Position numbers and translations under genes: made by a program
Assembly: GCF_000590885.1 (NCBI RefSeq)
Contig: NZ_JFHN01000042.1
Span: 44,757-108,756, forward strand
DNA: 64,000 bases
DNA from: Erwinia mallotivora
Lineage (GTDB): Bacteria > Pseudomonadota > Gammaproteobacteria > Enterobacterales > Enterobacteriaceae
Direction of reading: 5' to 3'
Notes under the pieces: model-generated
Databases searched by the model: none
Seen by the model: only the letters and a program-made list of their open reading frames with translations
Told to the model about the DNA's origin: nothing
In this document: one piece after another, positions 18,286 to 34,528 of the stretch
Layout of the letters: each line of letters opens with the position of its first letter
How positions within the stretch are numbered: position 1 is the stretch's first letter

Positions 18286-18299
18286 ATTGAACGTTCAAT
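18286..18299. promoter_or_regulatory. BetI operator
   Basis: ATTGAACGTTCAAT is a perfect 14-bp palindrome 51 bp upstream of the betI start, followed by ATAAAAT. It resembles the known BetI site in betIBA promoters (a palindrome around GAACGTTC). Choline relieves BetI repression. Confidence 0.85.
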
Positions 18300-18349
18300 A
18301 TAAAATGCGTTATAGTTTTGGTTATCGAAACGTTAAAAGTGATCGAGTG

Positions 18350-18952
18350 ATGCCAAAAGTTGGAATGAAAGCCATCCGTCAGGCGCAGCTGATTGACGCG
18401 ACGCTGACGGTGATCGATCGCGTTGGGCTGGCGGATGCCAGCCTGGCGCTGATTGCTAAAGAAGCGGGCGTTTCCACCGGGATTGTCAGCCACTATTTTG
18501 GCGATAAGAACGGTCTGCTGGATGCCTGTATGCGCCAGATCCTTGCCGATTTATATCAGGCGGTAGGGCGATTTCGGCAGCAGGCGGCAGATGAGCCGGA
18601 GGCCCGCATCCGCGCCATTATCGACGGCAACTTTGATGCATCCCAGATTGCCAGACCGGTACTGAAAACCTGGCTGGCTTTCTGGACCAGCAGCCTGCAT
18701 CAGCCGGCATTACAGCGTCTGCAACGCATTAACGACCGCCGCCTCTACTCCAATCTGGTGGCACAGTTTGCCCGCAGCCTGCCGCATTCGCAGGCACGGG
18801 ATGCGGGAGCCGCGATGGCGGCGCTGATTGACGGACTGTGGCTGCGCATGACGCTGGCACCTCAGCCGATGCAGCAGGGGCTGAATGCGGCCCGCAGACT
18901 TTGTTATCAACATCTCTCGTTGTGGCTGGCAGCCGCAACGCCTGAAACCTGA
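18350..18952 (+). CDS. betI: Choline-responsive repressor BetI
   Basis: TetR-family repressor of 200 residues. The family N-terminus MPKVGMKAIRQAQLIDATL is present, followed by the HTH in IAKEAGVSTGIVSHYFGDK. The ligand domain contains KTWLAFWTSSLHQP and ALIDGLWLR, typical of BetI. ATG 18350 is chosen; an earlier in-frame ATG would overlap the operator. It is first gene of betIBA, 9 bp before betB, and controls the operon from the palindrome at 18286-18299. Confidence 0.95.
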   Translation: MPKVGMKAIRQAQLIDATLTVIDRVGLADASLALIAKEAGVSTGIVSHYFGDKNGLLDACMRQILADLYQAVGRFRQQAADEPEARIRAIIDGNFDASQIARPVLKTWLAFWTSSLHQPALQRLQRINDRRLYSNLVAQFARSLPHSQARDAGAAMAALIDGLWLRMTLAPQPMQQGLNAARRLCYQHLSLWLAAATPET

Positions 18953-18961
18953 GGAGGAAGC

Positions 18962-20428
18962 ATGGCAGACATGCAACGCCGTGGACTTTACATCAATGGT
19001 CGGGAAGAAGCCGGTCAGGGTGAAACCTTTACCACCATCAACCCGGCAAACGGGGAAGTGCTGGCTGAAATCACCGCTGCAAATCAGCAGGATATCGATC
19101 GTGCCGTCGCCTCTGCGGTAGCCGGACAACGGATCTGGCGCAGCTACACCCCGGTGGAGCGCAGTCGCGTACTGCTGAAGGCCGTGGCCATTTTGCGCGA
19201 GCGCAATCAGCAGCTGGCGGAACTGGAAACCGCTGATACCGGTAAACCCATCAGTGAAACTGCGGCGGTGGATATCGTCACCGGGGCTGACGTGCTGGAG
19301 TACTATGCCGGGCTGGCGGTTGCCGTGCAGGGCGACAGCATCCCGCTGCGTGACAGCGCGCTGGTCTACACCCGCCGTGAACCACTGGGCGTCTGTGCTG
19401 GTATCGGCGCGTGGAACTATCCCATTCAGATAGCCCTGTGGAAAAGTGCGCCGGCGCTGGCGACCGGCAACGCGATGATATTCAAGCCCAGTGAAGTCAC
19501 GCCGCTTAGCGCGCTGGAACTGGCGAAAATTTTCACCGAGGCGGGGCTGCCGGATGGCGTGTTCAACGTGGTGCAGGGGGCTGGTGCTGTGGGGCAGGGG
19601 CTGAGCCAGCACCCGGCGATTGCCAAAGTCTCCTTTACCGGCGAGGTGAATACCGGCAAACGGGTAATGGCTGATGCCGCGCTGGCTAACCTGAAATCGG
19701 TCACCATGGAGCTGGGGGGTAAGTCACCGCTGATCGTCTTCGACGATGCCGATCTGGAGCGTGCAGTTGACGCTGCAATGATGGCTAACTTTTACAGCAG
19801 TGGTCAGGTCTGTACCAATGGCACCCGGGTATTTGTTCAGCGTTCGCTGAAAGCCGCCTTTGAACAGCGTCTGCTGGAAAAAATGGCCGGGATACGCTGC
19901 GGTGACCCGCGTGACCCTGACGTTAATTTCGGGCCGCTGGTCAGCGAGGAGCACTGCCAGAAAGTGGTGTCTTACCTCAACATCGGTAAAGAAGAGGGTG
20001 CCACCCTGCTGACCGGCGGCCAGCGTCTGACAGAAGGCGCACTGGCTAAAGGGTGCTATGTCGCCCCGACGGTGTTCAGCGACTGTCACGATGAGATGCG
20101 AATCGTCAAAGAAGAGATCTTTGGCCCGGTGATGAGCGTGCTGGCGTTTGACGACGAGCAGGAAGTGATTGAGCGTGCCAACAACACCGAATATGGGCTG
20201 GCGGCCGGGGTGTTTACCACCTCACTGAACCGCGCACACCGGGTTATCCACCAGCTTGAAGCCGGGATCTGCTGGGTTAACAGCTGGGGTGAATCGCCCG
20301 CGCCGATGCCGGTCGGCGGTTACAAGCAGTCTGGCCTGGGCCGCGAAAACGGCACCGAGACGCTGCATCACTATACCCGCACCAAATCGATTCTGATCGA
20401 AATGGGCGACTATCCATCAGCATTCTGA
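18962..20428 (+). CDS. betB: Betaine aldehyde dehydrogenase
   Basis: NAD(P)+-dependent aldehyde dehydrogenase of 488 residues (E. coli 490), which oxidises betaine aldehyde to glycine betaine. Catalytic Glu250 is in MELGGKSP and the nucleophile Cys284 in SSGQVCTNG. The coenzyme-binding FTGEVNTGK and the C-terminal [11 protein letters not shown] are typical. GAGGAGGAA precedes the ATG. It forms the second step of the osmoprotectant pathway with betA. Confidence 0.97.
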
Positions 20429-20496
20429 TTCGCTGATATCCCGAATTTATTCAGTCTGTTGCCGCGACACCGGGTGCGCGGCATAACGGAGGTTTA

Positions 20497-22164
20497 ATGC
20501 AGAAATTTGACTACATCATTATTGGTGCCGGCTCAGCTGGCAACGTGCTGGCTACGCGACTGACTGAGGATGCTGACGTATCGGTACTGTTACTGGAAGC
20601 AGGCGGAAAAGACCACCGCTGGGACTTCCGTACCCAGATGCCAGCCGCTTTGGCGTATCCCCTTCAGGGCAAACGTTACAACTGGGCTTTTGAAACCGAC
20701 CCTGAGCCGAAAATGAACAACCGCCGGATGGAGTGCGGGCGCGGCAAAGGGCTGGGCGGATCTTCACTGATTAACGGTATGTGCTACATCCGTGGCAACG
20801 CGATGGATTACGACAACTGGGCAAAGAAAGCGGGACTGGAAAACTGGTCTTACCTCAACTGCCTGCCCTATTTCCGCAAGGCAGAGAAGCGCGACATCGG
20901 TGAGAACGACTATCACGGTGGCGAAGGCTATCTCAGCGTGACCACGCCAAAAGCGGGCAACAATCCGCTGTTCCGTGCTTTCATCGACGCGGCGAAGCAG
21001 GCCGGGCACCATGAAACGGACGACCTGAACGGCTACCGTCAGGATGGTTTTGGTCCGATGGACCGCACCGTCACCGCACAGGGACGTCGGTCCAGCACCG
21101 CCAGAGGTTACCTGGACGTGGCAAAACAGCGGCCAAACCTGACCATCATCACCCATGCGCAGACTGACCGCATTCTGTTCAGTGGCAAAACCGCCACCGG
21201 CGTGTGCTGGTTAAAAGAGGGAAAACAGCAGCAGGCAGAGGCAAACCGCGAAGTGCTGCTCTGTGCCGGTGCAATCGCCTCGCCGCAGATTTTGCAACGT
21301 TCAGGGGTTGGCCCGGAAGAGTGGCTGCGCGAGCTGGATATTGACGTGGTCCATGCACTCCCGGGGGTAGGCCGTAACTTACAGGATCACCTGGAAGTCT
21401 ACATGCAGTTCCGCTGCAAAAAGCCGGTCAGCCTCTATCCCTCGCTTCACTGGTGGAATCAGCCAGCAATCGGCGCTGAATGGCTGTTTAACGGCACCGG
21501 TATTGGGGCCAGCAACCAGTTTGAAGCCGGCGGCTTTATCCGCAGCGATGACCAGCCAGACTGGCCGGATTTGCAGTATCACTTCCTGCCGGTGGCGATT
21601 AACTACAACGGCAGCAGCCCGGTAAAAGAGCATGGTTTCCAGGCGCACGTAGGACCGATGCGTTCACGCAGCCGGGGACGGGTAAAACTGACCTCAAAAC
21701 ACCCGTATGCGGCACCGTCGATCTTCTTCAACTATATGTCGGAGCAGCGCGACTGGGAGGAGTTCCGCAGCGCGGTGCGACTGACGCGCGAGATCATGAA
21801 GCAGCCTGCGCTGGCGGAATATTGCGGTGAGGAAATTCAGCCCGGTGCGGCGGTGCAGAGCGATGAACAGATAGATGCCTTCATCCGTGAACATGCCGAA
21901 ACGGCATACCATCCCTGCGGCAGCTGCGCGATGGGCAACGATGAGATGGCGGTGGTGGATGCACAAGGGCGTGTTCACGGCATGGAGCGCCTGCGCGTGG
22001 TGGATGCCTCCATCATGCCGCAAATCACCACCGGCAACCTAAATGCGCCAACGGTAATGATTGCTGAAAAGATGGCCGACCTGATCCGTGGTCGTACCCC
22101 GCTGGTCGCCTCCACGGCGGACTACTATCAGCATCAGCGTGAAGGCGCGGCTGAACCGGTTTGA
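20497..22164 (+). CDS. betA: Choline dehydrogenase
   Basis: GMC-family FAD oxidoreductase of 555 residues, membrane-associated, converting choline to betaine aldehyde. The ADP-binding GAGSAG is at residues 10-15. GMC signatures are [15 protein letters not shown] near 80 and [15 protein letters not shown] near 260. The catalytic His lies in [11 protein letters not shown], and the family motif [15 protein letters not shown] is near the C-terminus. It is last gene of betIBA, followed by two hairpins. Confidence 0.97.
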
Positions 22165-22172
22165 GCCTCAAC

Positions 22173-22225
22173 ACTCCGGCACAAACGTGCCGGAGTGGCT
22201 GATTTTGGGGCTACAGCCCCATTTT
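22173..22225 (+). terminator. Tandem terminators after betA
   Basis: First hairpin: perfect 10-bp stem ACTCCGGCAC/GTGCCGGAGT with loop AAAC (22173-22196). Second: TGGGGC/GCCCCA (22206-22221) followed by TTTT. Together they end betIBA. Confidence 0.75.
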
Positions 22226-22265
22226 ACCCGCAGTGAAAGGGCAAATGGGGTCATTAGCACATAAT

Positions 22266-23009
22266 TCAGTTGCCGGTGGCAGAGGTAGTGCTGTCGGTGG
22301 TAGTGGCGGTTCCGCTGGTGGTATTTGTCGCAGAAGAACTGCTGTCAGTGCTGGCGGCAGTGCCGCTAGTGGTTTTCGCGGCCGTCGTGCTGGCGTCGGA
22401 ATTGGTAGCGGTTCCGCTGCTGGTATTTGTCGCAGAAGTGCTGGTGCCGGTACTGGCATTTGCCGTGGTTGTGCTGCTGCTGGCTGAAGGTGTTGCCGTG
22501 CCCGTCGAAGCGGATGCGGTAGTGGTGGACGAGGGGGTTGTCTCGCTGGTCGCGGCAGGGGCTTTACTGCTGTCGGCTGGCGCAGGAGCGGCGGCTTTCT
22601 TCACCGGGCGTGGCACCGGGGTAGCGGCAGTTTCTGTAAAGGTCGGCTTGTTCTTCAGCACCGAATAGGTGATGTGTTTGACCTTATCCGGCACGGCGGC
22701 GATTTCCACCGGTTGAATCGTCACCCGTCCATAGCCATACAGCGTCGAGACGTAGCCTCCCACCTTATGCTTACCGGGCAACATATGTAAATCCGTGGTT
22801 TCTCCCCGCACCAGCGGGCCGGCATCTTTGCCATCAACGGTAACAATAATCGACGAGCCATCATCCGTGCGGCTGACCACATGAGAGACGGTCACCTGCG
22901 AAGGGCCGGTGGCGTAATCCTGCTCTGCGGTATCCTCTGCACTGTGTTTCGCACAGCCAGTCAGCGTGATAGCTGCCGTCAGGGCCGCCAGTGTAAAACG
23001 ATAAATCAT
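22266..23009 (-). CDS. Lipoprotein with Ser/Thr-rich repeat tail
   Basis: Putative lipoprotein of 247 residues. The lipobox LTGC puts the lipidated Cys at 19. Residues about 35-128 form a compact beta-rich domain (VTVSHVVSRTDDGSSIIVTV ... LHMLPGKHKVGGY), reminiscent of PEGA-like surface domains. A Pro/Ala linker follows, and from about 145 to the end the chain is almost only Ser, Thr, Ala, Gly and Asn. The last part consists of three 17-residue repeats. I do not recognise an orthologue. It lies between betIBA and the sulfur regulator. Confidence 0.7.
   Translation of the reverse strand: MIYRFTLAALTAAITLTGCAKHSAEDTAEQDYATGPSQVTVSHVVSRTDDGSSIIVTVDGKDAGPLVRGETTDLHMLPGKHKVGGYVSTLYGYGRVTIQPVEIAAVPDKVKHITYSVLKNKPTFTETAATPVPRPVKKAAAPAPADSSKAPAATSETTPSSTTTASASTGTATPSASSSTTTANASTGTSTSATNTSSGTATNSDASTTAAKTTSGTAASTDSSSSATNTTSGTATTTDSTTSATGN
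22278..22430 (-). repeat. Three tandem 51-bp coding repeats
   Basis: The lipoprotein tail is encoded by three in-frame 51-bp units (22380-22430, 22329-22379, 22278-22328). They translate as TNTSSGTATNSDASTTA, AKTTSGTAASTDSSSSA and TNTTSGTATTTDSTTSA. On the plus strand the GC-GTTCCGCT-like block recurs at 22306, 22357 and 22408, exactly 51 bp apart. Confidence 0.85.
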
Positions 23010-23193
23010 TATGCCTCATTCTCCTTAACAGTCAGGAAACCCTATTTTAATGTTGCGAGTCATTGTGTGACAGGGGGAAAAGGTTCAGGTTCATCTTAAA
23101 ATGATGAGCAATTGTGAAACGGCGGGTGAGCAGTGATGCGAGGCTGTGCAGTAAATCGCCGCATTGTGCGGCAAAAGCAGGTGCAGTTCCCGC

Positions 23194-25107
23194 TCAACTC
23201 TCGCTCTTCAGCTCCGCCTGCCAGACGGCGTCACCCACCCGGATCGCGCGGGGTAGCAGACCCAGCGCATAGAAACGATCGGCAATCACCTGCTGCTGAC
23301 GAATTATCTGTCGATCAACCGGTCGGGTCTGATGGCTGCGACGCGACAGCGCAAGCGACAATGAACGGCTCGCCAGGCCCAGCTCGGTTGCCAGCAGCGC
23401 GGCGGCCTCAGCCCGGTGATTGTCGATATAACGTCCGGTCTGTTCCAGCGCCGACATCACTGCCGACAATAAATCACCGCTGTGACGGACAAAATCGCGA
23501 TGGGCGAGATAAAACTGATGGTTGTTGACCCGCTCCACGCCGTTGGCAATTACCCTGAACTGGCCACTCTGTTCAGCGGCACTCAGCAGCGGATCCCACA
23601 TCATCCAGGCATCCACCGCACGACAATCGCCCGGCGTCAGCGGATATTTCGGCGGGGCGTAAACCACATGGATATCATTCAGCGTCAGCCCGGCTTCATC
23701 CAGCAGTTGCAACAGCAGATAGTGCACATTCGATCCCCGGTTAACCGCAATTCGCCTGCCGCGCAGGCAGGCCAGCGAGTGAACGGGACTGTCGGCGGTG
23801 ACCACCAGCGCCACGCTCTGCGGCGCAGCCGGTTCCCATGCCACATAGCTCAGCGGCTGATTCTGCGCCTGGGCAAACAGCGGCGGCACCTCACCGGTGG
23901 TGCCGAAATCAATCTCCCCGCTGTTCAGCGCGTGCAGCAACTGGGGACCGGCGGGAAACTCACTCCACAACACGTTAACGCCGCTGTCGGCAAACTGGCT
24001 CTCCAGCGACTGCCGGGCCTTCAGCACGCCCAGGTTGCCGAACTTCTGAAAGCCAATCCGCAGTTCGCGACTGAGGTTGACGGCGGCGGAGCGGGGGGAT
24101 GTTGAGGCGTTTCCGCCCCTCGCCGTACGTGGCTTAATCACGCCGAGGTGCGCCAGCTGGGTACGCAGGGTGTTGCGACTGATCCCCAGCAGCGCGGCGG
24201 TCTGGATCTGATTGCCATCGGTCAGTTCAAAAGCGTTACGCACCAGTGAGGAGAGCACCCGCTGAAAAACCGGGCTGCGCTGGTCCTGCAATTGCAGACG
24301 AATAAATTCATCAAGCGGTTCCGCCGTCACCGCCACCGGCGAGGTGGCATTGAGTGAGCCAAACTGCAACTGTCCGGCCTTAATCAGCGGTTCGCTGCTC
24401 AGCAGCACCGCATTATGCAGGGTGTTTTCCAGCTCACGAATATTACCCGGCCAGTCATAACTGACCAGCGCGGCCTGCGCTTCTTCACTGAGTACCGGCT
24501 GCGGGCGATGATGTCGTTCGGCATAGTGTTGCAGGAAATGGCGGCTCAGCAACGGAATATCCTGACGCCGCTGGCGTAGCGGCGGCAGCGTCAGCACCGC
24601 CACATTCAGCCGGTAGTAAAGATCTTCACGAAACCGGCGTCGGGCAATGGCCGTGGCAAGATCGACGTGGGTGGCGGCAATCACCCGCACGTCAACTTTT
24701 ACCGGCCGGTGAGAGCCAACACGCGTCACCTCACGTTCCTGGAGAACCCGCAGCAGCTTTACCTGAAGCGGCAGACTAAGCTCGCCAATTTCATCCAGCA
24801 GCAAAGTGCCGCCGTCAGCCGCTTCAAACCATCCCTGATGGCGTTCCCCTGCGCCGGTAAAGGCACCTTTCTCGTGACCGAACAGTTCTGACTCCGCCAG
24901 GCTTTCACTCAGCGCACCGCAGTTGACCGCCAGAAATGGCTTCTGACTTCGCGGGCTGTGGTGATGCAGATAGCGCGCCACCCCCTCTTTACCGGTGCCG
25001 GTTTCACCGACAATCAGCACCGTGGCGTCAGTGGGTGCCAGCCTTTTCAGTACGCCCTGCAACGCGACAGAGGCGGGATCTTTTAATTCAGGGCCGTCGT
25101 TGTGCAT
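23194..25107 (-). CDS. Sigma-54 activator fused to an SsuA-like binding domain
   Basis: Regulator of 637 residues with an unusual architecture. Residues about 10-245 are an AAA+ sigma-54-interaction domain: Walker A GETGTGKE (34-41), the GAFTGA loop (81-86) and Walker B LLLDEIGEL (102-110). A Fis-type HTH is at about 297-320 (IQTAALLGISRNTLRTQLA). From about 347 to the end is a periplasmic-binding fold like SsuA/TauA (LRIGFQKFGNLGVLKA ... FGTTGEVPPLFAQAQ ... WMMWDPLL) without a signal peptide. It is inferred to be a cytoplasmic ligand sensor for a sulfonate or sulfone. ATG 25107 (GGAG 6 nt upstream) is chosen; earlier in-frame codons would run through the UAS sites. It is divergent from the sulfone operon, as SfnR-like regulators are. 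Confidence 0.88.
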   Translation of the reverse strand: MHNDGPELKDPASVALQGVLKRLAPTDATVLIVGETGTGKEGVARYLHHHSPRSQKPFLAVNCGALSESLAESELFGHEKGAFTGAGERHQGWFEAADGGTLLLDEIGELSLPLQVKLLRVLQEREVTRVGSHRPVKVDVRVIAATHVDLATAIARRRFREDLYYRLNVAVLTLPPLRQRRQDIPLLSRHFLQHYAERHHRPQPVLSEEAQAALVSYDWPGNIRELENTLHNAVLLSSEPLIKAGQLQFGSLNATSPVAVTAEPLDEFIRLQLQDQRSPVFQRVLSSLVRNAFELTDGNQIQTAALLGISRNTLRTQLAHLGVIKPRTARGGNASTSPRSAAVNLSRELRIGFQKFGNLGVLKARQSLESQFADSGVNVLWSEFPAGPQLLHALNSGEIDFGTTGEVPPLFAQAQNQPLSYVAWEPAAPQSVALVVTADSPVHSLACLRGRRIAVNRGSNVHYLLLQLLDEAGLTLNDIHVVYAPPKYPLTPGDCRAVDAWMMWDPLLSAAEQSGQFRVIANGVERVNNHQFYLAHRDFVRHSGDLLSAVMSALEQTGRYIDNHRAEAAALLATELGLASRSLSLALSRRSHQTRPVDRQIIRQQQVIADRFYALGLLPRAIRVGDAVWQAELKSES

Positions 25108-25184
25108 CGCCTTCTCCGGGCAGGAAACCAGCTGCCACACTAACGCCAGCGCGCCATTCTGGCGAGGGGCCGCAGCCCGATAAA

Positions 25185-25232
25185 AGTGGCAAATGCAGCA
25201 GGGTCTGTGCGCCAGCTGTTGCATTTGCAACA
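25185..25232. promoter_or_regulatory. Two tandem upstream activator sites (UAS)
   Basis: The 16-mer TGTTGCATTTGCAACA at 25217-25232 has perfect 7-bp inverted arms. A second site at 25185-25200 (AGTGGCAAATGCAGCA) matches its reverse complement at 13 of 16 positions. The centres are 32 bp apart, about three helical turns, and lie roughly 97 and 129 bp before the predicted transcription start. They are inferred to bind the Fis-type HTH of the divergent activator. Confidence 0.7.
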
Positions 25233-25255
25233 CTCCGCCGGGGTGGGTGGAATTC

Positions 25256-25268
25256 TAACGCATTGATA
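25256..25268 (-). promoter_or_regulatory. IHF-site match
   Basis: On the minus strand TATCAATGCGTTA matches the IHF consensus WATCAANNNNTTR at every position. It lies between the UAS pair and the -24/-12 element, where IHF bending is expected. Confidence 0.6.
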
Positions 25269-25294
25269 AATAATCATTAAAAAAAACGGCACAG

Positions 25295-25310
25295 CTGGCA
25301 TGTTTCCTGC
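25295..25310 (+). promoter_or_regulatory. Sigma-54 (-24/-12) promoter
   Basis: CTGGCATGTTTCCTGC has the invariant GG (25297-25298) and GC (25309-25310) separated by 10 nt. It differs from the consensus YTGGCACGNNNNTTGC at two positions. It precedes the SsuD-like gene by about 70 bp. Confidence 0.75.
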
Positions 25311-25380
25311 TTAGTGACATATAACCAAACGAAATCAATCAATGTGATTTTTTCTGATAACGTTATATAGGAAAGCGATA

Positions 25381-26541
25381 ATGAGCCAGCGCAGCGACAC
25401 CATCAACGTCTTCTGGTTTCTGCCGACCCACGGTGACGGACACTATCTTGGCACCGCCGAAGGCGGACGTGCCGTGGATCTGCCTTATCTGCAACAGGTG
25501 GCGCTGGCGGCTGACAGCCTTGGCTATTACGGCGTGCTGATCCCCACCGGCAAAAGCTGCGAGGATGCATGGCTGGTGGCATCCGCACTGGCACCGATTA
25601 CGCAAAAACTGCGCTATCTGGTGGCGGTGCGTCCCGGCCTGCAACCCCCCAGCCTCGCCGCGCGTATGGCTGCCACCCTCGACCGTCTCTCCAATGGTCG
25701 GCTGCTGATCAACGTGGTGACCGGCGGCGACCCGGTGGAAAATCGGGGTGACGGTATTTTCCTCAGCCATGCCGAACGCTATCAGGTGACCCGTGAATTT
25801 CTGACGGTCTTTTCCCGCCTGCTGAAAGGCGAAAAGGTTGACTACAGCGGTCAGCACATCCGGGTGGAGGGCGCGGAACTGCTGTTCCCGCCGGTGCAGG
25901 ACAACGGGCCGCCGCTCTACTTTGGTGGATCGTCCGACGCCGCAACCGAGGTGGCGGCGCAGCAGATTGACAGCTGGCTCACCTGGGGCGAGCCGCCTGA
26001 ACAGGTGGCGGAAAAGATTGCCCGGGTGCGTCAGCGGGCCAGAGAAGAGGGGCACACGCTGAGCTATGGCATTCGTCTGCATGTGATTGTGCGGGAAACC
26101 GAAGAAGAGGCGTGGGCCGCCGCAGACCGACTGATTTCCCACCTTGATGATGAAACCATCGCCAGCGCGCAGAAAATCTTTGCCCGGATGGATTCGGCAG
26201 GCCAGGCGCGAATGAGCGCGCTGCATAACGGCCAGCGGGACAATCTGCGTATCGCGCCGAATCTGTGGGCCGGTGTTGGTCTGGTACGCGGCGGGGCGGG
26301 CACGGCGCTGGTGGGCAATCCGCAGCAGGTGGCGGCGCGCATCCGGGAATATCAGGCGCTGGGCATTGAGAACTTTATCTTCTCCGGCTATCCGCATCTG
26401 GAAGAGGCACACCGTTTCGCCTCGCTGGTTATGCCGCTGTTGCCGCTGGCGGACAGGGCCGAAAAGCGCCCTGGCACGGTCAACACCGGACCCTTTGGTG
26501 AAACTATCGGCGGCGATCGCCGTCCGGTAAAAGCAGAGTAA
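25381..26541 (+). CDS. ssuD: FMNH2-dependent alkanesulfonate monooxygenase (SsuD/MsuD-like)
   Basis: Bacterial luciferase-like flavin monooxygenase of 386 residues, very close to SsuD. Shared segments are [29 protein letters not shown] (active-site Cys60), [32 protein letters not shown] and [19 protein letters not shown]. It cleaves C-S bonds of alkanesulfonates to an aldehyde plus sulfite using FMNH2. It is the first gene behind the sigma-54 promoter and is followed by sfnG, so methanesulfonate (the MsuD substrate) is an alternative. No FMN reductase is encoded in the cluster. Confidence 0.9.
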
Positions 26542-26551
26542 GGAGCCATTG

Positions 26552-27643
26552 ATGAGCAACCAACCAATCAGATTTGCCTACTGGGTGCCGAATGTGTCCG
26601 GCGGGCTGGTGATCAGCAAAATCCCCCAGCGCACCAGCTGGGACTTTGACTACAACCGTAAACTGGCGCAGATTGCCGAGCGGGCAGGGTTTGAATATGC
26701 CCTGACGCAAATCCGTTTTACCGCCGGTTACGGCGCGGACAATCAGCATGAATCGGTCAGCTTTTCCCAGGCGCTGCTGGGGGCGACAGAAAAACTGAAG
26801 GTGATAGCCGCGCTGCTGCCCGGTCCGTGGAATCCGACGCTGGCGGCAAAACAAATCGCCACCATCAGCCATCTGAGCCAGGCCCGCATCGCGGTGAACA
26901 TCGTCAGCGGCTGGTTTCGCGGCGAATTTAAAGCCATCGGCGAGCCCTGGCTGGATCATGAAGAGCGTTACCTGCGTTCAGAAGAGTTTATCCGCTGCCT
27001 GCGCGGCATCTGGCAGCAGGAGAGTTTCAGCTTTGCCGGGGATTTCTACCGCTACCGGGACTATGTGCTGAAACCCCGACCGCTCGATCCGCTGCCGGAA
27101 ATCTTCCAGGGCGGCAGTTCGCGGGCGGCGCGGGATATGGCGGCAAGAGTGTCTGACTGGTACTTCACCAATGGCAACACCGTCGAGGGGGTGAGGGCGC
27201 AGGTGGAGGATATCCGTGGTAAGGCGGCACAGAATCGCCATCAGGTGAAAATTGGTGTCAACGGCTTCGTTATCGCCCGCGACACGGAGCAACAGGCGCA
27301 GCAGGTGCTGAACGACATCCTGCAACAGGCGGACCCGGAGGCGGTGCGCGGCTTTCAGCATGAAGCGAAAAATGCGGGCAGCGCGTCGCCGGAAGGGGAA
27401 GGCAACTGGGCAAAATCGACGCTGGAGGATCTGGTGCAGTACAACGACGGCTTTAAAACCAACCTGATTGGCACCCCACAGCAAATCGCAGAGCGGATCA
27501 TCGCCCTGAAACAGGCCGGTGTGGATCTGCTGCTGCTGGGCTTTCTGCATTTTCAGGAAGAGGTGGAATTCTTTGGCCGCGAGGTGATCCCGCGCGTCCG
27601 CGAGCTGGAGCGGCAGACCGAGCCGGAACTGAGCCATGAGTGA
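26552..27643 (+). CDS. sfnG: Dimethylsulfone monooxygenase SfnG
   Basis: FMNH2-dependent luciferase-family enzyme of 363 residues with SfnG-type segments: FAYWVPNVSGGLVISKI, FEYALTQIRFTAGYG, RIAVNIVSGWFRGEF, EIFQGGSSRAARDMAA and DWYFTNGNTVEG. SfnG oxidises dimethylsulfone to methanesulfinate, which after oxidation feeds the sulfonate monooxygenase. ATG 26552 is 6 nt from AGGAG. It lies 10 bp after the SsuD-like gene and overlaps the next start by 8 bp (ATGAGTGA), indicating translational coupling. Confidence 0.9.
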   Translation: MSNQPIRFAYWVPNVSGGLVISKIPQRTSWDFDYNRKLAQIAERAGFEYALTQIRFTAGYGADNQHESVSFSQALLGATEKLKVIAALLPGPWNPTLAAKQIATISHLSQARIAVNIVSGWFRGEFKAIGEPWLDHEERYLRSEEFIRCLRGIWQQESFSFAGDFYRYRDYVLKPRPLDPLPEIFQGGSSRAARDMAARVSDWYFTNGNTVEGVRAQVEDIRGKAAQNRHQVKIGVNGFVIARDTEQQAQQVLNDILQQADPEAVRGFQHEAKNAGSASPEGEGNWAKSTLEDLVQYNDGFKTNLIGTPQQIAERIIALKQAGVDLLLLGFLHFQEEVEFFGREVIPRVRELERQTEPELSHE

Positions 27644-29036
27644 ACGGCATATCGTCATCGTTGGCGGCGGCTTCAGCGGCACCGCGCTGGCTGTTCAGCT
27701 GGCGCGACGGGGCGGCGCGGGCCTGCGGGTGACGGTGATTGAGCCGCGTGATGCTCTGGCGCAGGGCGTGGCTTACAGCACTGACGATGCCGCACACCGC
27801 ATTAACGTTCCTGCCGCCCGGATGCAGCTCTCTGCGGCGGAAGAAGGGGATTTCGATCGCTGGTATCGCGCCTCCGCCGCTTATCAGGCCGATCCGGCGG
27901 CGCGCTGGCACGACGACAGCGTCTGGCCGCAGCGCCGCCAGTTTGCCGCATACCTGACCCTGAAACTGGACGACGCCCGTCGCCATTCAGCCGTGGTGGT
28001 TCAGCATCTGAAGGATCGCGCGGTGGCGCTGGTTGATGGCGTGGTGCATACCGCCGGGGGAGCGCGCTTAACGGCCGATCAGGTGGTGCTGGCCATCAGT
28101 CATCCGCCGCCCGACGTGCCGCCACCGCTGCGCGCCTTTCGCAACCATCCTGCCGTCATCGCTGACCCCTGGCGTCCCGGGGCGCTGGCCGGGATTGCCG
28201 CCGGTGACCGCGTGGCGATTATCGGCAGCGGTCTGACCATGGCGGATATGGTGGCATCCCTTCAGCGGCAGGGGCACCGGGGCAACGTGCTGGTCTTTTC
28301 CCGTCGGGGACGTCTGCCGGGGGCTAACCTGAGCGGTGAATATGCTGACTGGCCGCTCGATTTTCAGCGTCCACAGCGTGACAGCGCGCGAGGCTGGCTG
28401 CAACGTGTGCGCGCGGAAGTGCGCGAGGCCGCTAAGGTTAACCTGCCCTGGCAGCGGGTGCTGGATGCAATCCGCCACCATGCGCAGTCGATCTGGCAGC
28501 GCTTGCCGTTGCAAGAGCAGCAGCGCTTTCTGCGCCATCTTCGTCCCTGGTGGGATGCGCACCGCTATCGCATTGCGCCGCAGGTCAGCGCGGTACTGGA
28601 GCAGCGACAACAAAGCGGGCAGTTGCAGCTGCTGGCGGCCCGCCTGCAACAGGTTGACGTCCAGAACGGCAGCATCAGCCTCACCCTGCACCGTCGTCAG
28701 GGGGCAGAAGAGATCCACCACGTTGACCGGCTGATCGTCACCACCGGCCCGGCCCACAGCGGGTTGATCGACAGCGACGCGCTGCTGAGCCAGCTGGCTG
28801 GCGCAGGCATCATCCGCCGCGATGCGCTCGGCCTCGGTATCGATGTCAGCGCGCTTTCGCAAACCCTTAACGCCACTGGCCAGGCGAATCCGCATCTGTA
28901 CGTGGTGGGGCCGGCGGCCCGTGGCCGCTTTGGCGAGCTGATGGGACTGCCACAGGTGGCGGAACATGCCGAACAGCTCGCCCGCCAGCTGCTGGAACCA
29001 TTGCTTCTCACCGCGTCAGCGCGATGTCCTGCCTGA
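27636..29036 (+). CDS. FAD/NAD(P)-binding oxidoreductase, YdhS-like
   Basis: Flavoprotein of 466 residues of the COG4529/YdhS type. The N-terminal dinucleotide fold is HIVIVGGGFSGTALAVQLAR, with DxxAQGVAYSTDDAAHRINV as in this group. A second Rossmann motif is VAIIGSGLTMADMV near 190, and the C-terminal FAD segment is LYVVGPAARGRFGE. The substrate is unknown. Its position inside the sulfone operon, overlapping sfnG by 8 bp, suggests electron supply or an N/S-oxidation step, but this is inference. Confidence 0.75.
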   Translation: MSERHIVIVGGGFSGTALAVQLARRGGAGLRVTVIEPRDALAQGVAYSTDDAAHRINVPAARMQLSAAEEGDFDRWYRASAAYQADPAARWHDDSVWPQRRQFAAYLTLKLDDARRHSAVVVQHLKDRAVALVDGVVHTAGGARLTADQVVLAISHPPPDVPPPLRAFRNHPAVIADPWRPGALAGIAAGDRVAIIGSGLTMADMVASLQRQGHRGNVLVFSRRGRLPGANLSGEYADWPLDFQRPQRDSARGWLQRVRAEVREAAKVNLPWQRVLDAIRHHAQSIWQRLPLQEQQRFLRHLRPWWDAHRYRIAPQVSAVLEQRQQSGQLQLLAARLQQVDVQNGSISLTLHRRQGAEEIHHVDRLIVTTGPAHSGLIDSDALLSQLAGAGIIRRDALGLGIDVSALSQTLNATGQANPHLYVVGPAARGRFGELMGLPQVAEHAEQLARQLLEPLLLTASARCPA

Positions 29037-29109
29037 CTGAACCACTGAACTTTTCCTTCTGATTAACCTCATCATGGTCAGGCTGCGTGCTGGCCGTTAA
29101 GGAGTGCCT

Positions 29110-30519
29110 GTGTCGTCATCACGAGAAATCCGCCTCAACGCCTTTGAGATGAACTGCGTCGGCCATCAGTCACCGGGACTGTGGGCGCATCCCCGCGACC
29201 GCTCATGGCAATATAAGGATCTGAGTTACTGGACCGACCTCGCCCGTTTGCTGGAGCGGGGGAAATTTGACGGGCTGTTTATTGCCGATGTGCTGGGCGT
29301 TTACGACGTGCTGAATGGCAGCAATCAGGCGGCAATCCGTCATGCCACCCAGGTGCCGGTGAACGATCCGCTGGCGCTGATCACTCCGATGGCGCTGGTC
29401 ACCGAGCATCTTGGCTTTGGCCTGACCGCCTCGCTGTCGTTTGAGCATCCTTATCCGTTCGCCCGGCGACTCTCGACGCTGGATCACCTGACCAGAGGCC
29501 GCGTCGGCTGGAATATTGTCACCTCCTACCTGGAGAGCGGCGCACGTAATATTGGCCAGACGCAGACCGATCACGATGCGCGCTATGACTATGCCGATGA
29601 ATATTTGCAGGTGGTCTATAAGCTGCTGGAAGGCAGCTGGGAAGAGGGCGCGGTGCTGCGTGACCGGGAGCGGCGTATCTTCAGCGATCCGCATAAAATT
29701 CATCCCATCAACCATCAGGGCACTTTCTTTCAGGTGCCGGGTATTCATCTCTGCGAACCGTCACCGCAGCGTACCCCGGTGCTGTATCAGGCCGGGGCAT
29801 CGAGCCGGGGTAAACAGTTTGCCGCCGAACATGCCGAGTGCGTGTTTGTGGCCGCGCCGTCAAAAATATTGCTGAAGAAAACCGTCAGCGATATCCGTCG
29901 CCGCGTTGCCGAAGCGGGCCGTGATCCGCGTAGTGTGCTGATCTTTAATCTGCAAACGGTGATTGTCGGCGAAAGCGATCGGGCTGCCCGCGCAAAGTGG
30001 CTGGAATACAAAGAGTATGTCAGCTACGAAGGCGCGCTGGCGCTGATATCAGGCTGGACCGGCATTGATTTTGCTCAGTATCAGTCGGACCAGGTGTTAA
30101 AGCATCTGCACACTAACGCTATCCAGTCGGCGGTGGAAACCTTCTCCACCGCTGACCCCAACCGCCAGTGGACGGTGCAGGCGCTGGCCGACTGGGTGGG
30201 CATTGGCGGCTTTGGTCCGTTGCTGGTCGGCAGTGCGCAAACCGTGGCTGATGAATTGCAGAGCTGGGTAGAAGAAACCGATGTCGATGGCTTCAACCTT
30301 GCCTATGCCCTCAGCCATGAAACCTTCAGCGACGTGGTTGACCTGCTGATCCCGGAGCTGCAACAGCGCGGCGTCTTCAAACGGCAGTACCAGCCGGGCA
30401 CTCTGCGCGAAAAACTGTCTGGCGGCGGGCCACGGCTGGCGGCACCGCATCCGGCTGCGCGCTACCGTCAGCTCAGCGGTGAGCAGCACTGGGCGGCGGG
30501 GGATCGTCTCGCCGTCTGA
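29110..30519 (+). CDS. NtaA/SnaA/DszA-family flavin monooxygenase (DmoA-like)
   Basis: Luciferase-like monooxygenase of 469 residues. Family segments include LNAFEMNCVGHQSPGLW, KFDGLFIADVLGVYD, RVGWNIVTSYLESGARN, HDARYDYADEYLQVVYKLLE and the PVLYQAGASSRGKQFA phosphate loop. Relatives act on dimethylsulfide (DmoA), nitrilotriacetate (NtaA) or dibenzothiophene sulfone (DszA). Given sfnG and ssuD beside it, an organosulfur substrate is likely. The start is GTG 29110, five bases after AGGAG; GTG 29104 overlaps that RBS. Confidence 0.8.
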   Translation: MSSSREIRLNAFEMNCVGHQSPGLWAHPRDRSWQYKDLSYWTDLARLLERGKFDGLFIADVLGVYDVLNGSNQAAIRHATQVPVNDPLALITPMALVTEHLGFGLTASLSFEHPYPFARRLSTLDHLTRGRVGWNIVTSYLESGARNIGQTQTDHDARYDYADEYLQVVYKLLEGSWEEGAVLRDRERRIFSDPHKIHPINHQGTFFQVPGIHLCEPSPQRTPVLYQAGASSRGKQFAAEHAECVFVAAPSKILLKKTVSDIRRRVAEAGRDPRSVLIFNLQTVIVGESDRAARAKWLEYKEYVSYEGALALISGWTGIDFAQYQSDQVLKHLHTNAIQSAVETFSTADPNRQWTVQALADWVGIGGFGPLLVGSAQTVADELQSWVEETDVDGFNLAYALSHETFSDVVDLLIPELQQRGVFKRQYQPGTLREKLSGGGPRLAAPHPAARYRQLSGEQHWAAGDRLAV

Positions 30520-30552
30520 TCTGCCGTGGACAGCACCGTGGCACCCTTCTGA

Positions 30553-30577
30553 CCGGAACAGTCCGTGGCTGTTCCGG
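30553..30577 (+). terminator. Hairpin after the DmoA-like gene
   Basis: Perfect 9-bp stem CCGGAACAG/CTGTTCCGG with a 7-nt loop, 34 bp past the stop. There is no adjacent T-run. The remaining 130 bp before the MFS gene are AT-rich and may hold a separate promoter; a weak GG-N10-GC pattern at 30581-30594 could be a second sigma-54 element. Confidence 0.45.
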
Positions 30578-30712
30578 TGTGGCTGTTGGTGAGCAAAAAA
30601 TTATTTAACTTATTGAATTTATGTAATTTTATAGCAGTAATTGTTGTTTGTCTGCCGCCCGAAACCTCTCTATAACTGCCTCGTTACCTGCTGAAAAAAA
30701 GACGAGGATATG

Positions 30713-32164
30713 ATGAGCACCATTAATTTTGAGGGGATAACGGCGACGCCACCGCCGCATTCAACACCGGTTCGTTCGGTCAGTGACGTGGCGAAACTGA
30801 TCAACGCACAACAAAACCCACACCGCTATGCCCGCTTTATCGTTTTTCTGGCGCTGGGCGGGGTCTTTCTGGACGCTTACGATCTCACCACGCTGTCATA
30901 CGGTATTGATGATGTGGTGAAAGAGTTTGCGCTGACGCCAGCCCTGACCGGTCTGGTTACCTCATCGATTATGATCGGCACTATTATTGGTAACCTGCTG
31001 GGCGGCTGGCTGACCGATAAGTACGGACGCTACACGGTATTTATGGCCGATATGCTGTTTTTCGTCGTCTCCGCCATTGCCGCCGGTCTGGCCCCTAACG
31101 TCTGGGTGCTGACTGGCGCACGTTTCCTGATGGGTATCGGCGTGGGGATCGATCTGCCGGTGGCGATGGCCTACCTTGCGGAGTTCTCAAAGTTCACCGG
31201 CAAAGGCAACAAAGCCGCGCGCCTCGCTGCCTGGTGCCCGATGTGGTATGCCGCCTCATCGGCCTGTTTCTTTATCATCTTTGCGCTGTTTTTTCTGTTA
31301 CCGGAAGCGCATCAGGGCTGGCTGTGGCGGGCATCACTGCTGTTTGGTGCCGTCCCGGCGCTGTTGATTATTGCCGTACGCCGTAAATTTATGAATGAAT
31401 CGCCGCTGTGGGCGGCGAATCAGGGCGACCTGCGCGGGGCGGTGCGTATTCTGCGTGACGCTTACGGCATCCACGCCCATGAAGCCGCGCCGCCGGTTAA
31501 CAAAAAACCGCCGAAGGTTGGCTACCGCGAGCTGTTTCGCCAGCCGTGGCGGGGACGCACGCTGGTGACTGCGGTGATGAACATCTGCATCTCATTTGAG
31601 TACACCGCGATCGCCTTCTTTCTGCCCTCGATCCTGGCCCGCTTTCTTGGCGCGGGCGTATTTGAAACCATCGCGGCGTCGCTGGGGCTGAACGTGCTGT
31701 TCGCCTTTACCGGCGGCCTGCTGGGGATGCGGCTGGCATGGAAATATCCTTCGCGCCATGTCGCCATCGCCGGGTTTGCCCTGCAATTTATCGCGCTGGT
31801 TTCACTGGCGCTGATCGGCCACCCGCAGGCCGCCGCCGGGGTGCTGTTGGCGATACTGATGCTCGGCCTGTGGCTGTTTGCCGAAGGCTTTGGTCCCGGT
31901 GCGCAGATGATGGTCTATCCGACGCTGGCTTATCCGACCCACATTCGTGCCACCGGGGTGGGCTTTGGCCGCTCGCTTTCCGGCATCGGCAGCGCGCTGG
32001 CGCTGTTTATTCTGCCGGTATTGCAGGCGTCGTTTGGCACCAACATGTTCTGGATTGTCTCGCTGGCGGCGATCATCCCGATCTTTTTCCTGCTGATTAT
32101 CCGTTTTGAACCCACCCGTCAGGATATCGATGACCAACCCGATAATGGAGAACACCATGTCTGA
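30713..32164 (+). CDS. MFS transporter (metabolite:H+ symporter type)
   Basis: Major facilitator of 483 residues with 12 predicted helices. The MFS loop-2/3 motif is GGWLTDKYGRYTVFMAD, and helix 4 has GVGIDLPVAMAYLAEF as in sugar/aromatic-acid symporters. Arg-rich FVRRK and FRQPWRGR loops are cytoplasmic. As the only membrane transporter in the sulfur cluster it is the candidate importer (or exporter) of the organosulfur compound; no ssuABC-type ABC genes are present. It overlaps the next gene by 8 bp. ATG 30713 is 5 nt after GAGG; ATG 30710 is equally in frame. Confidence 0.82.
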   Translation: MSTINFEGITATPPPHSTPVRSVSDVAKLINAQQNPHRYARFIVFLALGGVFLDAYDLTTLSYGIDDVVKEFALTPALTGLVTSSIMIGTIIGNLLGGWLTDKYGRYTVFMADMLFFVVSAIAAGLAPNVWVLTGARFLMGIGVGIDLPVAMAYLAEFSKFTGKGNKAARLAAWCPMWYAASSACFFIIFALFFLLPEAHQGWLWRASLLFGAVPALLIIAVRRKFMNESPLWAANQGDLRGAVRILRDAYGIHAHEAAPPVNKKPPKVGYRELFRQPWRGRTLVTAVMNICISFEYTAIAFFLPSILARFLGAGVFETIAASLGLNVLFAFTGGLLGMRLAWKYPSRHVAIAGFALQFIALVSLALIGHPQAAAGVLLAILMLGLWLFAEGFGPGAQMMVYPTLAYPTHIRATGVGFGRSLSGIGSALALFILPVLQASFGTNMFWIVSLAAIIPIFFLLIIRFEPTRQDIDDQPDNGEHHV

Positions 32165-33374
32165 ACAGCACACTGCAAATTACACTGCGCTGGCCTCACA
32201 CTTTCGTCCGGTTTTTGCCCGCATCGCGGAAGGCGCGCTGGCCCGTGAACGCGATCGTCAGCTGGTTCATCAACCGATCAACTGGCTGAAACAGGCCGGT
32301 TTTGGCACCCTGCGCATTCCGCAGAGTGAGGGCGGATGGGGGGCATCGTTGCCGCAGCTGTTCCGTCTGCTGAATGAGCTGGCGGCAGCGGATTCTAACC
32401 TGCCGCAGGCACTGCGGGCGCACTTTGCCTTTGTCGAAGATCGCCTTAATCAGCCGGACAGCGATGAACGGCGGCGCTGGTTCAGCCGCTTTCGCGACGG
32501 CGAGCTGGTAGGCAGCGGCTGGAGTGAAACCGGCAACCTCAAACTGGGCGAGGTGCTGACCAGAGTCAGCCCCGCAGAGCAGGGCTGGAGGCTGGACGGC
32601 GAAAAATTTTACAGCACCGGCGTACTCTATGCTGACTGGATCGATGTCTATGCGCAGCGTACCGATAATGGTCGCGACGTGATTGCGCTGGTCAGCACCC
32701 ATCAGTCTGCCGTGGAACGGGAAGATGACTGGGATGGTTTCGGCCAGCGTCTGACCGGCAGCGGCACCACCCGTTTTCGTCACGCTGCCGTCGAGCCGCA
32801 GCACGTCTATGACTTCAGCGAACGCTTCCGTTATCAGACGGCGTTTTATCAGCATGTGTTGCTGTCATGCCAGGTGGGGATCGCCAGAGCCATCGTGCGC
32901 GATGTGGCAGAGGGGGTGGAAAGTCGTAAACGCATCTACAGTCATGGTAACGCCCGCCTGGTGAAAAATGACGTCCAGGTGTTGCAGGTGGTCGGGCAGA
33001 TAGCCAGCTGGGCCTGGGCGGTGGAGGCCAGCGCAGAGCGGGCGACAGAATCACTGCAACAGGCTTATGAGGTCTGGCAGCGTGGCGGCAGCGAAGAGGC
33101 GTTAAAGCAGGCCAATATCCTCGCGGAGCTGGAGGCGGCAAAAGCGCAGGTTATCGCCAGCGACCTGGTGCCGCGCGCCGCCACCGAGCTGTTCAATGCG
33201 CTGGGGGCGTCGGATACACGCGTCAGCAAGGCGCTGGATCGTCACTGGCGCAATGCCCGGACGCTGGCCTCGCACAATCCGGTTGTCTACAAAGCCCGCA
33301 ACGTCGGCGACTGGGAGGTAAACGGCAGGCAGCCAACCTTTATCTGGCAGATTGGCAATGGGGGAGAAGGATAA
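32157..33374 (+). CDS. Acyl-CoA dehydrogenase-fold flavin monooxygenase (SfnB/DszC-like)
   Basis: Protein of 405 residues with the acyl-CoA dehydrogenase fold. The helical N-domain contains GFGTLRIPQSEGGWGASLPQ. The middle domain has VGSGWSETGNLKLG and GWRLDGEKFYSTGV, and the C-terminal domain has YQHVLLSCQVGIARAIV and ATELFNALGASDT. The catalytic Glu of true dehydrogenases is not obvious. SfnB and DszC/TdsC members are sulfur-acquisition oxidases or monooxygenases. The overlap with the MFS gene and cluster context support that role. ATG 32157 follows GGAG by 6 nt. Confidence 0.8.
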   Translation: MSEQHTANYTALASHFRPVFARIAEGALARERDRQLVHQPINWLKQAGFGTLRIPQSEGGWGASLPQLFRLLNELAAADSNLPQALRAHFAFVEDRLNQPDSDERRRWFSRFRDGELVGSGWSETGNLKLGEVLTRVSPAEQGWRLDGEKFYSTGVLYADWIDVYAQRTDNGRDVIALVSTHQSAVEREDDWDGFGQRLTGSGTTRFRHAAVEPQHVYDFSERFRYQTAFYQHVLLSCQVGIARAIVRDVAEGVESRKRIYSHGNARLVKNDVQVLQVVGQIASWAWAVEASAERATESLQQAYEVWQRGGSEEALKQANILAELEAAKAQVIASDLVPRAATELFNALGASDTRVSKALDRHWRNARTLASHNPVVYKARNVGDWEVNGRQPTFIWQIGNGGEG

Positions 33375-33390
33375 ATCCGCATGGTCTGGT

Positions 33391-33426
33391 GGTCAGAAAC
33401 CACGCCTGTTGGCGTGGTCACTGACC
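33391..33426 (+). terminator. Long hairpin ending the sulfone cluster
   Basis: GGTCAG-AA-ACCACGCC-TGTT-GGCGTGGT-CA-CTGACC forms a 14-bp stem with one 2x2 internal loop and a TGTT tetraloop, 16 bp past the stop. No T-run follows, so it could be a Rho-assisted terminator or 3' protective stem. Confidence 0.55.
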
Positions 33427-33491
33427 CGATACCGATGAGGCTGTGGCAACCTGATGATTATCGTACGGACCCCACCGCGCATGCCCTGCGG

Positions 33492-33908
33492 TCAGTCTTT
33501 AACGGGCTGATAAGTAAGAATACCCGCCACGCCGCCGCCACCGCCGTCACGAGGGTGATTGACCCCATCCACCACCTCGACTGTTGCAAAATCAAAGGGT
33601 GACACGCCTTCGAGGCAGGCCACATTAATGCCGTACTGCTGAGGATTTGACCGGCGTTGATGAAAGGTGTAAATCCCGCACTGAGAGCAAAAAAAGTGGG
33701 CAGCCTGCCGCGTATTGAAACGGTATTCGGTCAGGAATTCACTCCCGCTTACAATCTCAAGTCCTGAAAGTTCTGCGGAGACGGCAACCGCCCCGCGCAT
33801 CCGGCACAGGGAACAGTTACAGCGGCGAACAGTATTAAAACTATCGGATAACACCACGGAAAAGCGCACGGACTGACAGTGACAGCTGCCAGAAAATTTT
33901 TCACTCAT
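33492..33908 (-). CDS. GFA/CENP-V family zinc protein
   Basis: Small cytoplasmic protein of 138 residues with the GFA (glutathione-dependent formaldehyde-activating)/CENP-V fold. The zinc-binding cysteines are in GSCHCQSVRF, RRCNCSLCRMRG and FFCSQCGIYTFH. The tail has FDFATVEVVDGVNHP, then a glycine stretch. The name does not imply proven formaldehyde chemistry. It is convergent with the sulfone cluster. A C1 link to methylated sulfur oxidation, which releases formaldehyde, is only a speculation. Confidence 0.85.
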   Translation of the reverse strand: MSEKFSGSCHCQSVRFSVVLSDSFNTVRRCNCSLCRMRGAVAVSAELSGLEIVSGSEFLTEYRFNTRQAAHFFCSQCGIYTFHQRRSNPQQYGINVACLEGVSPFDFATVEVVDGVNHPRDGGGGGVAGILTYQPVKD

Positions 33909-34528
33909 CGTTTTTTCCTCACTAAGTTACAGACAACAGCATGGCCCAGGCCGCAGATCTTTTCGGGGCACAGGCTTTATCTGATGTCAGTATTGTACAT
34001 CTCAGAAATTTCGGTGTTTCTGGCGGACAGATAAGGCCCTCTGACAGCGGGCAGGCAGCAGGATTTTATTAAATTGCGCCAGTTCCACAATCTGCAATGC
34101 CGGTGAGCGGAAGAGAGCAGCCAGACGTTACCGTTTAAACAGAAATTGCGTGTTTTTTGCAAGAATTTCTGCTGATAACCCTGTTATAAATAGCCCTGGC
34201 TTTCCTGAGAAGAGCAGCCTGTACAGAAAGATAGTAATTAAGGGAATACGCCAGTAACGGTGAAATCACCCCCGCCTGGCCGAATCTGAATGCGTTGTAC
34301 ATGCATTTCCTGAGCTTGTCAGAAAACGAAAAGTGTAAAACGGCCGAAACACCAACAGTGAATGGTGGATCAATCACGTCAGCAATATAAACGTCGCAGG
34401 GAGCAAAAAATCATCACAGGAAACAGGATCTGATGTTCAGCATAATTCCGTCAGATAACGGCTGAGCCGAATCAGAATAAAATCCTGCATGATGAAACAG
34501 ACCATTAATACGTCAGTGAGGAGCACTT
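33909..34528. other. Gene-poor 620-bp region
   Basis: AT-rich stretch between the GFA gene and the orphan gene. Two leftward frames of 61 and 80 codons exist (33977-34162, 34135-34377), but neither has an RBS or recognisable sequence. No tRNA, insertion-sequence end or repeat was recognised. Confidence 0.4.

Follow-up and report, generated by a model that had tools for sequence, protein, structure and literature searches.

A sigma-54 activator with an SsuA-type binding domain behind its helix-turn-helix, encoded divergently from an ssuD operon in Erwinia mallotivora

SfnR is a short activator. SfnR-type activators of Pseudomonas consist of an AAA+ domain and a Fis-type helix-turn-helix (HTH), have no N-terminal regulatory domain and are linked to sfnG- and ssuD-type monooxygenases. 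The sigma-54 activators NtrC, ZraR and NorR share an AAA+ core with a GAFTGA motif, an HTH, paired upstream sites and a -24/-12 promoter. The order common to bacterial enhancer-binding proteins is an N-terminal regulatory, a central AAA+ and a C-terminal DNA-binding domain, as outlined in excerpts of PMC7175178. On the receptor side, the sulfonate in SsuA of X. citri is held by Q36, G68, G86 and S141, with W185 beside the alkane chain (excerpts of PMC3839906). A binding-protein-like domain in the role of a cytoplasmic C-terminal regulator has its nearest precedent in CmpC/NrtC, whose C-terminal domain lies on the cytoplasmic side and is thought to regulate its own protein (excerpts of PMC11349869). 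No published description of an activator joined to such a receptor was apparent in the accessible parts of the open-licence literature, whose coverage leaves out most subscription journals.

Here, we analysed a stretch of 64,000 nucleotides from E. mallotivora (the window), in which a sigma-54 activator joined to an SsuA-like sensor had originally been predicted. The gene and its parts are:

23194..25107, minus strand: fused regulator of 637 aa, sigma-54 AAA+ activator plus Fis-type HTH plus SsuA-type binding domain (domain and family searches, homologue alignment)
24358..25077, minus strand: AAA+ sigma-54 interaction domain and lid, residues about 11-250 (domain search)
24142..24270, minus strand: Fis-type HTH, residues about 280-322 (domain search, structure prediction)
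24073..24141, minus strand: flexible linker, residues 323-345 (structure prediction, alignment)
23212..24072, minus strand: SsuA-type binding domain, residues 346-632 (family score, structure matches, alignment)
23626..23649, minus strand: KYPLTPGD, residues 487-494, in enterobacterial fused proteins the counterpart of the DAR(A/P)AF of stand-alone SsuA-type proteins (row comparison)

The regulator is encoded by a single uninterrupted frame. Its Sigma54_activat domain scored 230 bits against a cut-off of 20.2, HTH_8 was likewise above its cut-off, the Walker A motif GETGTGKE is intact at residues 34-41, and GAFTGA at residues 81-86 is invariant in 43/43 aligned rows. The binding domain passed the curated cut-off of TIGR01728 (172.6 against 163.5 bits), did not reach the stricter PRK11553 model (245 of 299 bits), and matched the SsuA structures 2x26, 3e4r and 3ksx both by sequence and by fold. 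Domain scores, family scores and structure matches thus bear out the predicted joining, including the expectation that the C-terminal ~290 residues would match binding-protein profiles. The two halves are connected by a linker in which 1 of 23 columns is invariant in the 43-row alignment and where residues 325-345 have a pLDDT below 50. The overall prediction reached a pTM of 0.48, so that the mutual placement of the domains is of low confidence. All 16 aligned homologues are collinear with the regulator from end to end. An assembly join or frameshift between the HTH and the binding domain was ruled out by the single frame, this collinearity and the presence of the protein in 46 of 392 family genomes. 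A longer version starting at GTG 25233 is disfavoured, since its reading frame would cross the conserved upstream sites described below.

Compared with the SfnR-like short relatives among the matches listed, which have 354-433 aa and end after the HTH without a sensor, the 637-aa regulator carries an additional C-terminal domain. The tie to SfnR itself is our assumption; the relatives compared bear other names. In NtrC, ZraR and NorR the regulatory domain, where present, is usually N-terminal, whereas here it sits C-terminally behind the HTH, an order that is indeed unusual against the common one described in the excerpts of PMC7175178. SsuA shares the fold and four of five pocket residues with the regulator, which differs in its fusion to an activator, in KYPLTPGD replacing the DARAAF-type segment, in an Asn at the position of Ser141 and in the apparent lack of a signal peptide, none being visible by eye, in line with the original prediction. 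The domain is therefore not recognisable as an exported, periplasmic partner of SsuBC: in view of this apparent lack, its position behind the HTH and a polar linker, and the absence of an ABC gene from the six operon genes scanned, we regard it as an SsuA-type domain but not as an SsuA protein. The C-terminal domain of CmpC/NrtC (9uak, 8wm7) also matches the fold of the binding domain, but is an add-on to an ABC transporter ATPase rather than to an activator and shows an identity of only 14-15%.

A closer inspection of the potential ligand pocket was possible by alignment to X. citri SsuA, whose Q36, G68, G86, S141 and W185 correspond to Q354, G387, G405, N460 and W504 of the regulator; the single exchange is Ser141 to Asn, which is also found at position 460 in 20 of 26 stand-alone relatives. 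Each of the five positions is invariant in 43/43 rows, in a domain in which 96 of 286 columns are invariant overall. The five letters are identical in all 24 fused rows, 11 enterobacterial and 13 of myxobacterial type. Since the pocket letters are invariant and common to both fused lineages, the pocket looks maintained as judged from the alignment. The KYPLTPGD segment lies between two pocket positions. DAR(A/P)AF is present in all 26 stand-alone rows and is replaced by xPLxxxD in 11/11 enterobacterial fused rows and 0/26 stand-alone ones, while the myxobacterial-type fused rows keep an AF-containing form (13/13). The replacement may reflect ligand tuning or the loss of a transporter contact, and KYPLTPGD may alter or abolish ligand binding. 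A second SsuA-like protein, 35% identical to regulator residues 331-631, is encoded elsewhere in the E. mallotivora genome.

Divergently from the regulator, six genes were annotated on the opposite strand:

25381..26541, plus strand: ssuD, FMNH2-dependent alkanesulfonate monooxygenase (TIGR03565, 616 bits, cut-off 518)
26549..27643, plus strand: sfnG, dimethylsulfone monooxygenase family (TIGR04021, 596 bits, cut-off 383)
27636..29036, plus strand: FAD/NAD(P)-binding oxidoreductase (NAD_binding_9)
29104..30519, plus strand: NtaA/DmoA-family FMN-dependent monooxygenase (TIGR03860, 560 bits, cut-off 280)
30710..32164, plus strand: MFS transporter (domain search)
32106..33374, plus strand: SfnB-like protein of acyl-CoA dehydrogenase fold (TIGR04022, 250 bits, below the cut-off of 431)

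None of these six scanned genes is an ABC gene. In the 35 enterobacterial loci examined, from 46 genomes with a full-length regulator, ssuD is invariably the divergent neighbour. Operon content was compared in the loci of 20 relatives, in stretches of 10.6-15.5 kb of which some stop short of the operon end: ssuD adjoins the regulator in all 20, and the oxidoreductase was found in 19, the DmoA-type gene in 19, the MFS gene in 15 and sfnG in 7. In seven of these loci (L146, L148, L150, L152, L159, L163, L164), a separate SsuA-like protein is encoded near the regulator, 37-40% identical to the fused domain and with a leader-like N-terminus as judged by eye. Moreover, open reading frames of roughly 338, 235 and 291 aa lie between the DmoA-type and MFS genes in L146-L149, L153-L157, L161 and L162, and their sizes suggest an ABC importer.

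The intergenic stretch between regulator and ssuD contains three predicted elements:

25185..25200, no strand: candidate upstream activator site 1, imperfect, AGTGGCAAATGCAGCA (motif conservation)
25217..25232, no strand: candidate upstream activator site 2, TGTTGCATTTGCAACA (palindrome match)
25296..25311, plus strand: predicted sigma-54 -24/-12 promoter TGGCATGTTTCCTGCT for the ssuD operon (conservation)

We compared this stretch across 35 of the 46 genomes with a full-length regulator, counting the window itself. When up to three mismatches were allowed, 35/35 stretches matched TGYTGCANNTGCARCA at least twice; 30 did so with up to two mismatches and 24 with up to one. The TGTTGCAnnTGCAACA-like sites are paired at a distance of 31-32 bp in 33 of the 34 loci having exactly two sites, the exception being L164 with 122. 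A -24/-12 element of the form TGGCA(C/T)N6(T/C)GC is present in all 35 loci, which are mutually related and thus demonstrate constraint rather than 35 independent trials, and it follows the last site by 62-65 bp in 33 of them. Letter-shuffled controls contained the -24/-12 element in 8 of 3500 cases and at least two sites in 2 of 3500. Taken singly, the element is a weak match, given that the window contains 55 occurrences of the loose pattern TGGN9TGCW where 29.5 are expected; its conservation supports it as a promoter. rpoN is present in the genome with one match. The predicted link to the adjacent oxidation operon is thus supported by a conserved, divergent putative sigma-54 promoter. Between the -12 element and the ssuD start, TATAACCAAA (25320-25329) and TTATATAGGAAA (25363-25374) are strongly conserved in the 35 genomes, of which TTATATAGGAAA likely holds the ribosome site. 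An Rfam scan of 22200-34000 returned no match.

The exact sequence TGYTGCANWTGCARCA occurs once in the whole 4.64-Mb genome, at site 2. A genome-wide regulon was considered and set aside: of 12 further places with one mismatch, the four that were opened (L198-L201) had no -24/-12-like element within 700 bp of the site, the nearest ones lying about 780 bp (L199) and about 1250 bp (L201) away. The palindrome TGYTGCN4GCARCA was found 26 times in 303 kb of enterobacterial loci (17/20 loci) and 7 times in 107 kb of myxobacterial fused loci (5/7 loci), and did not occur in 1.24 Mb of 79 other loci, a natural control that is better than the crude triplet-block shuffle also used.

To judge how widespread the architecture is, a protein search was scored on residues 335-637 against the 7997 candidates of about 350-1115 aa sharing most words, and yielded 553 matches. 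The best 120 of these measure 627-696 aa, apart from a single protein of 591 aa, and precomputed Pfam annotation assigns both a sigma-54 and an NMT1 domain to every one. Source names among the matches listed were Serratia, Pantoea, Erwinia, Rouxiella, Brenneria, Lonsdalea, Gibbsiella, Tatumella and Kalamiella. Since records label the fused protein either as a regulator or as a sulfonate-binding protein, its numbers may be misjudged in genome surveys. Among plasmids, at least 80% of the query was covered in one place by 73 of 2786 matching records, and the 20 plasmid records among the matches listed are all from Pantoea. Of 392 genomes sampled from the same family, 49 matched with an E of 1e-100 or better: 46 over the full length (counting G502, which has an in-frame stop) and three partially (G658, G487, G679); by genus, 21 of 154 had any match. 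Full-length matches in the order sample (4/394 genomes) and matches in the phylum sample (3/398) all came from the window's own family, and the two matches in the class sample (369 genomes) were the window's genome and G1225, which has the activator part only. No full-length fusion was therefore found in other families in these three samples (394, 398 and 369 genomes), an absence that weighs less than a presence, since at most three first-look candidates per genome were scored in the family, order, phylum and class surveys and six in the survey of the order around Sorangium. An apparent fused homologue in Acinetobacter (L051) was rejected, as the locus holds two tandem stand-alone binding proteins and ssuD.

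Fused proteins were also obtained with a Methylococcus-like short activator as query. Among its best 120 matches, 17 were fused, with 639-684 aa, and all 17 align with the window protein from end to end at 42-45%. Three are named Polyangiaceae or Myxococcota; 13 of the 17 were used in trees and are called myxobacterial here from their grouping with these three records. In the order around a Sorangium assembly, 11 of 183 genomes match at E 1e-130, five with the fused form and six with the activator part only; two of the five carry three copies each. The survey of frequency thus describes a conserved family, in 46 of 392 family genomes and in myxobacteria, rather than a lone oddity. We compared seven loci from all five genomes (three from one and one each from four; two further copies were left out). 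In five of the seven, ssuD (62-65%) adjoins the regulator in a tail-to-tail and not a head-to-head arrangement, and sfnG is nearby in two of these five; in the fetched stretches of L190 and L191 ssuD was not found. Two other loci, L193 and L194, contain no exact TGYTGCN4GCARCA. The palindrome lies just upstream of the fused regulator gene in L191 (6790). In L189 (12448) and L195 (9650) it precedes a TGGCACCGCTCCTGCT-type element by about 65 bp, and a stand-alone binding-protein gene follows at some distance. These placements hint at autoregulation or a wider regulon.

How might such a protein have arisen? The activator-only protein of the class sample is 96% identical to Methylococcus records. 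In the locus of this protein (L166), from a Methylococcus-like genome, the same parts stand side by side as separate genes on one strand: SfnG (75%), an SsuA-like protein (42%), SsuD (65%) and a short activator that is 55% identical to regulator residues 8-325. The nearest activators sampled include short relatives from Methylococcus, Pseudomonas and Sorangium. The regulator thus most likely descends from an SfnR-like activator without a sensor, by which a neighbouring ssuA-type gene was captured as a cytoplasmic sensor, as judged from these comparisons, and the originally proposed captured-receptor origin gains support from L166. In a tree of the binding domain (50 rows), each fused group forms one clade (100/100), and a topology uniting both groups could not be rejected (p 0.262). 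The activator tree (63 rows) separates the enterobacterial clade (100/96) from the fused rows of the myxobacteria, which it places among short activators; the short rows of this tree were chosen by similarity to the Methylococcus-like query, which introduces a bias, and the program gave a long-branch warning. Holding all fused rows together was not rejected there either, at a borderline p of 0.061 obtained with P0160 and P0222 set aside. These two short records lie inside the myxobacterial fused group and may be cut records or losses. Taken together, we lean towards two fusion events rather than one.

A single genome of the same family, G487, bears on the role of the domain. Its activator frame of 362 codons ends after the HTH without a binding domain, and groups in the enterobacterial clade (100/99; inside at 87/83). 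The locus (L203, G487:C52:12000-19500) keeps the -24/-12 element and one site, and its divergent genes within 7.5 kb are the oxidoreductase and the DmoA-type gene; neither ssuD nor SfnG proper was found in these 7.5 kb. A search of the G487 genome for ssuD gave no match at E 1e-20, in a search run without a positive control. Binding domain and ssuD thus appear to be missing together, a joint absence that is predicted by the reading set out below and comes from one genome.

We consider it probable, from the comparisons above, that the regulator senses an intracellular organosulfonate through its SsuA-type domain and would then activate the divergent ssuD operon from the predicted -24/-12 promoter. 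At sequence level there is good support for the activator part, the sites and the promoter; ligand, sign and signal path we infer. The activator would bind the two conserved candidate sites, form the usual ring and loop to sigma-54 polymerase. A sulfonate entering via the MFS transporter or another importer would close the binding domain in the cytoplasm, and the closed domain would release or promote AAA+ assembly, so that SsuD's substrate would itself signal its availability. Because the receptor sits behind the DNA-binding domain, the signal of ligand closure would have to travel across the HTH to reach the AAA+ ring, and no description of such a route was apparent in the accessible parts of the open-licence literature. 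If the domain binds like SsuA, it would provide a ready-made sulfonate-responsive switch and explain how organosulfur oxidation is linked to substrate supply; it would also illustrate how a receptor gene beside a regulator gene could become the sensor of that regulator. More tentatively, and with rather less than even confidence, we propose that Enterobacterales and Myxococcota independently welded the receptor onto the tail of a sensorless SfnR-like activator, forming a new activator class in which the sensor is kept only while ssuD is kept.

Alternatively, the domain might sense sulfur status, its effector (sulfite, sulfate or an end product) acting negatively, so that the activator would be on by default and switched off under ample sulfur supply. 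Good sulfur sources usually repress the scavenging of sulfonates, which would fit such a sign. Sensorless short relatives exist, and the activator of G487 retains the promoter element and one site without a binding domain; both indicate that the activator part may work without it. We nevertheless regard this reading as unlikely, as the pocket keeps the sulfonate positions of SsuA and the domain tracks ssuD in two lineages, and the single genome in which no ssuD was found lacks the domain too. The same pocket conservation argues against a domain that has lost ligand binding and mediates protein contacts instead, for example by docking to a subunit of a transporter or by holding the ring of the activator; the protein would then respond to transport activity rather than to free ligand. 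This possibility draws on the xPLxxxD replacement in the enterobacterial fused rows and on CmpC/NrtC, which carry their binding-protein-like domain on a transporter ATPase (excerpts of PMC11349869); as the six operon genes scanned encode an MFS transporter but no ABC component, it appears less likely still.

That two adjacent genes were merely joined by annotation or assembly, yielding a functionless fusion, would account for the two naming habits of the databases and for nothing else noted here. The open frame, the 16 collinear homologues, the 46 family genomes and the recurrence in myxobacteria leave this explanation a negligible probability, and sensing of an organosulfonate by the fused domain is the reading we prefer.

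Several records and neighbouring genes deserve mention. P0243, P0244 and P0247, from Klebsiella- and Hafnia-named sources, are apparent pieces of the fused regulator and are named partial ATPase, sulfonate-binding protein or a precursor thereof; the start of the Hafnia record lies inside the HTH. In a same-genus relative (L204, G658:C23:35000-41500), the regulator is joined directly, mid-gene to mid-gene, to the DmoA-type gene, and the system looks decayed through deletion. In the window, the gene just downstream of the regulator (22266-23009) encodes a putative lipoprotein with a long, repetitive, Ser/Thr-rich C-terminal half. Further on, a TetR-type gene, an aldehyde dehydrogenase and a GMC oxidoreductase stand in a row (18287-22164), resembling betI-betB-betA.
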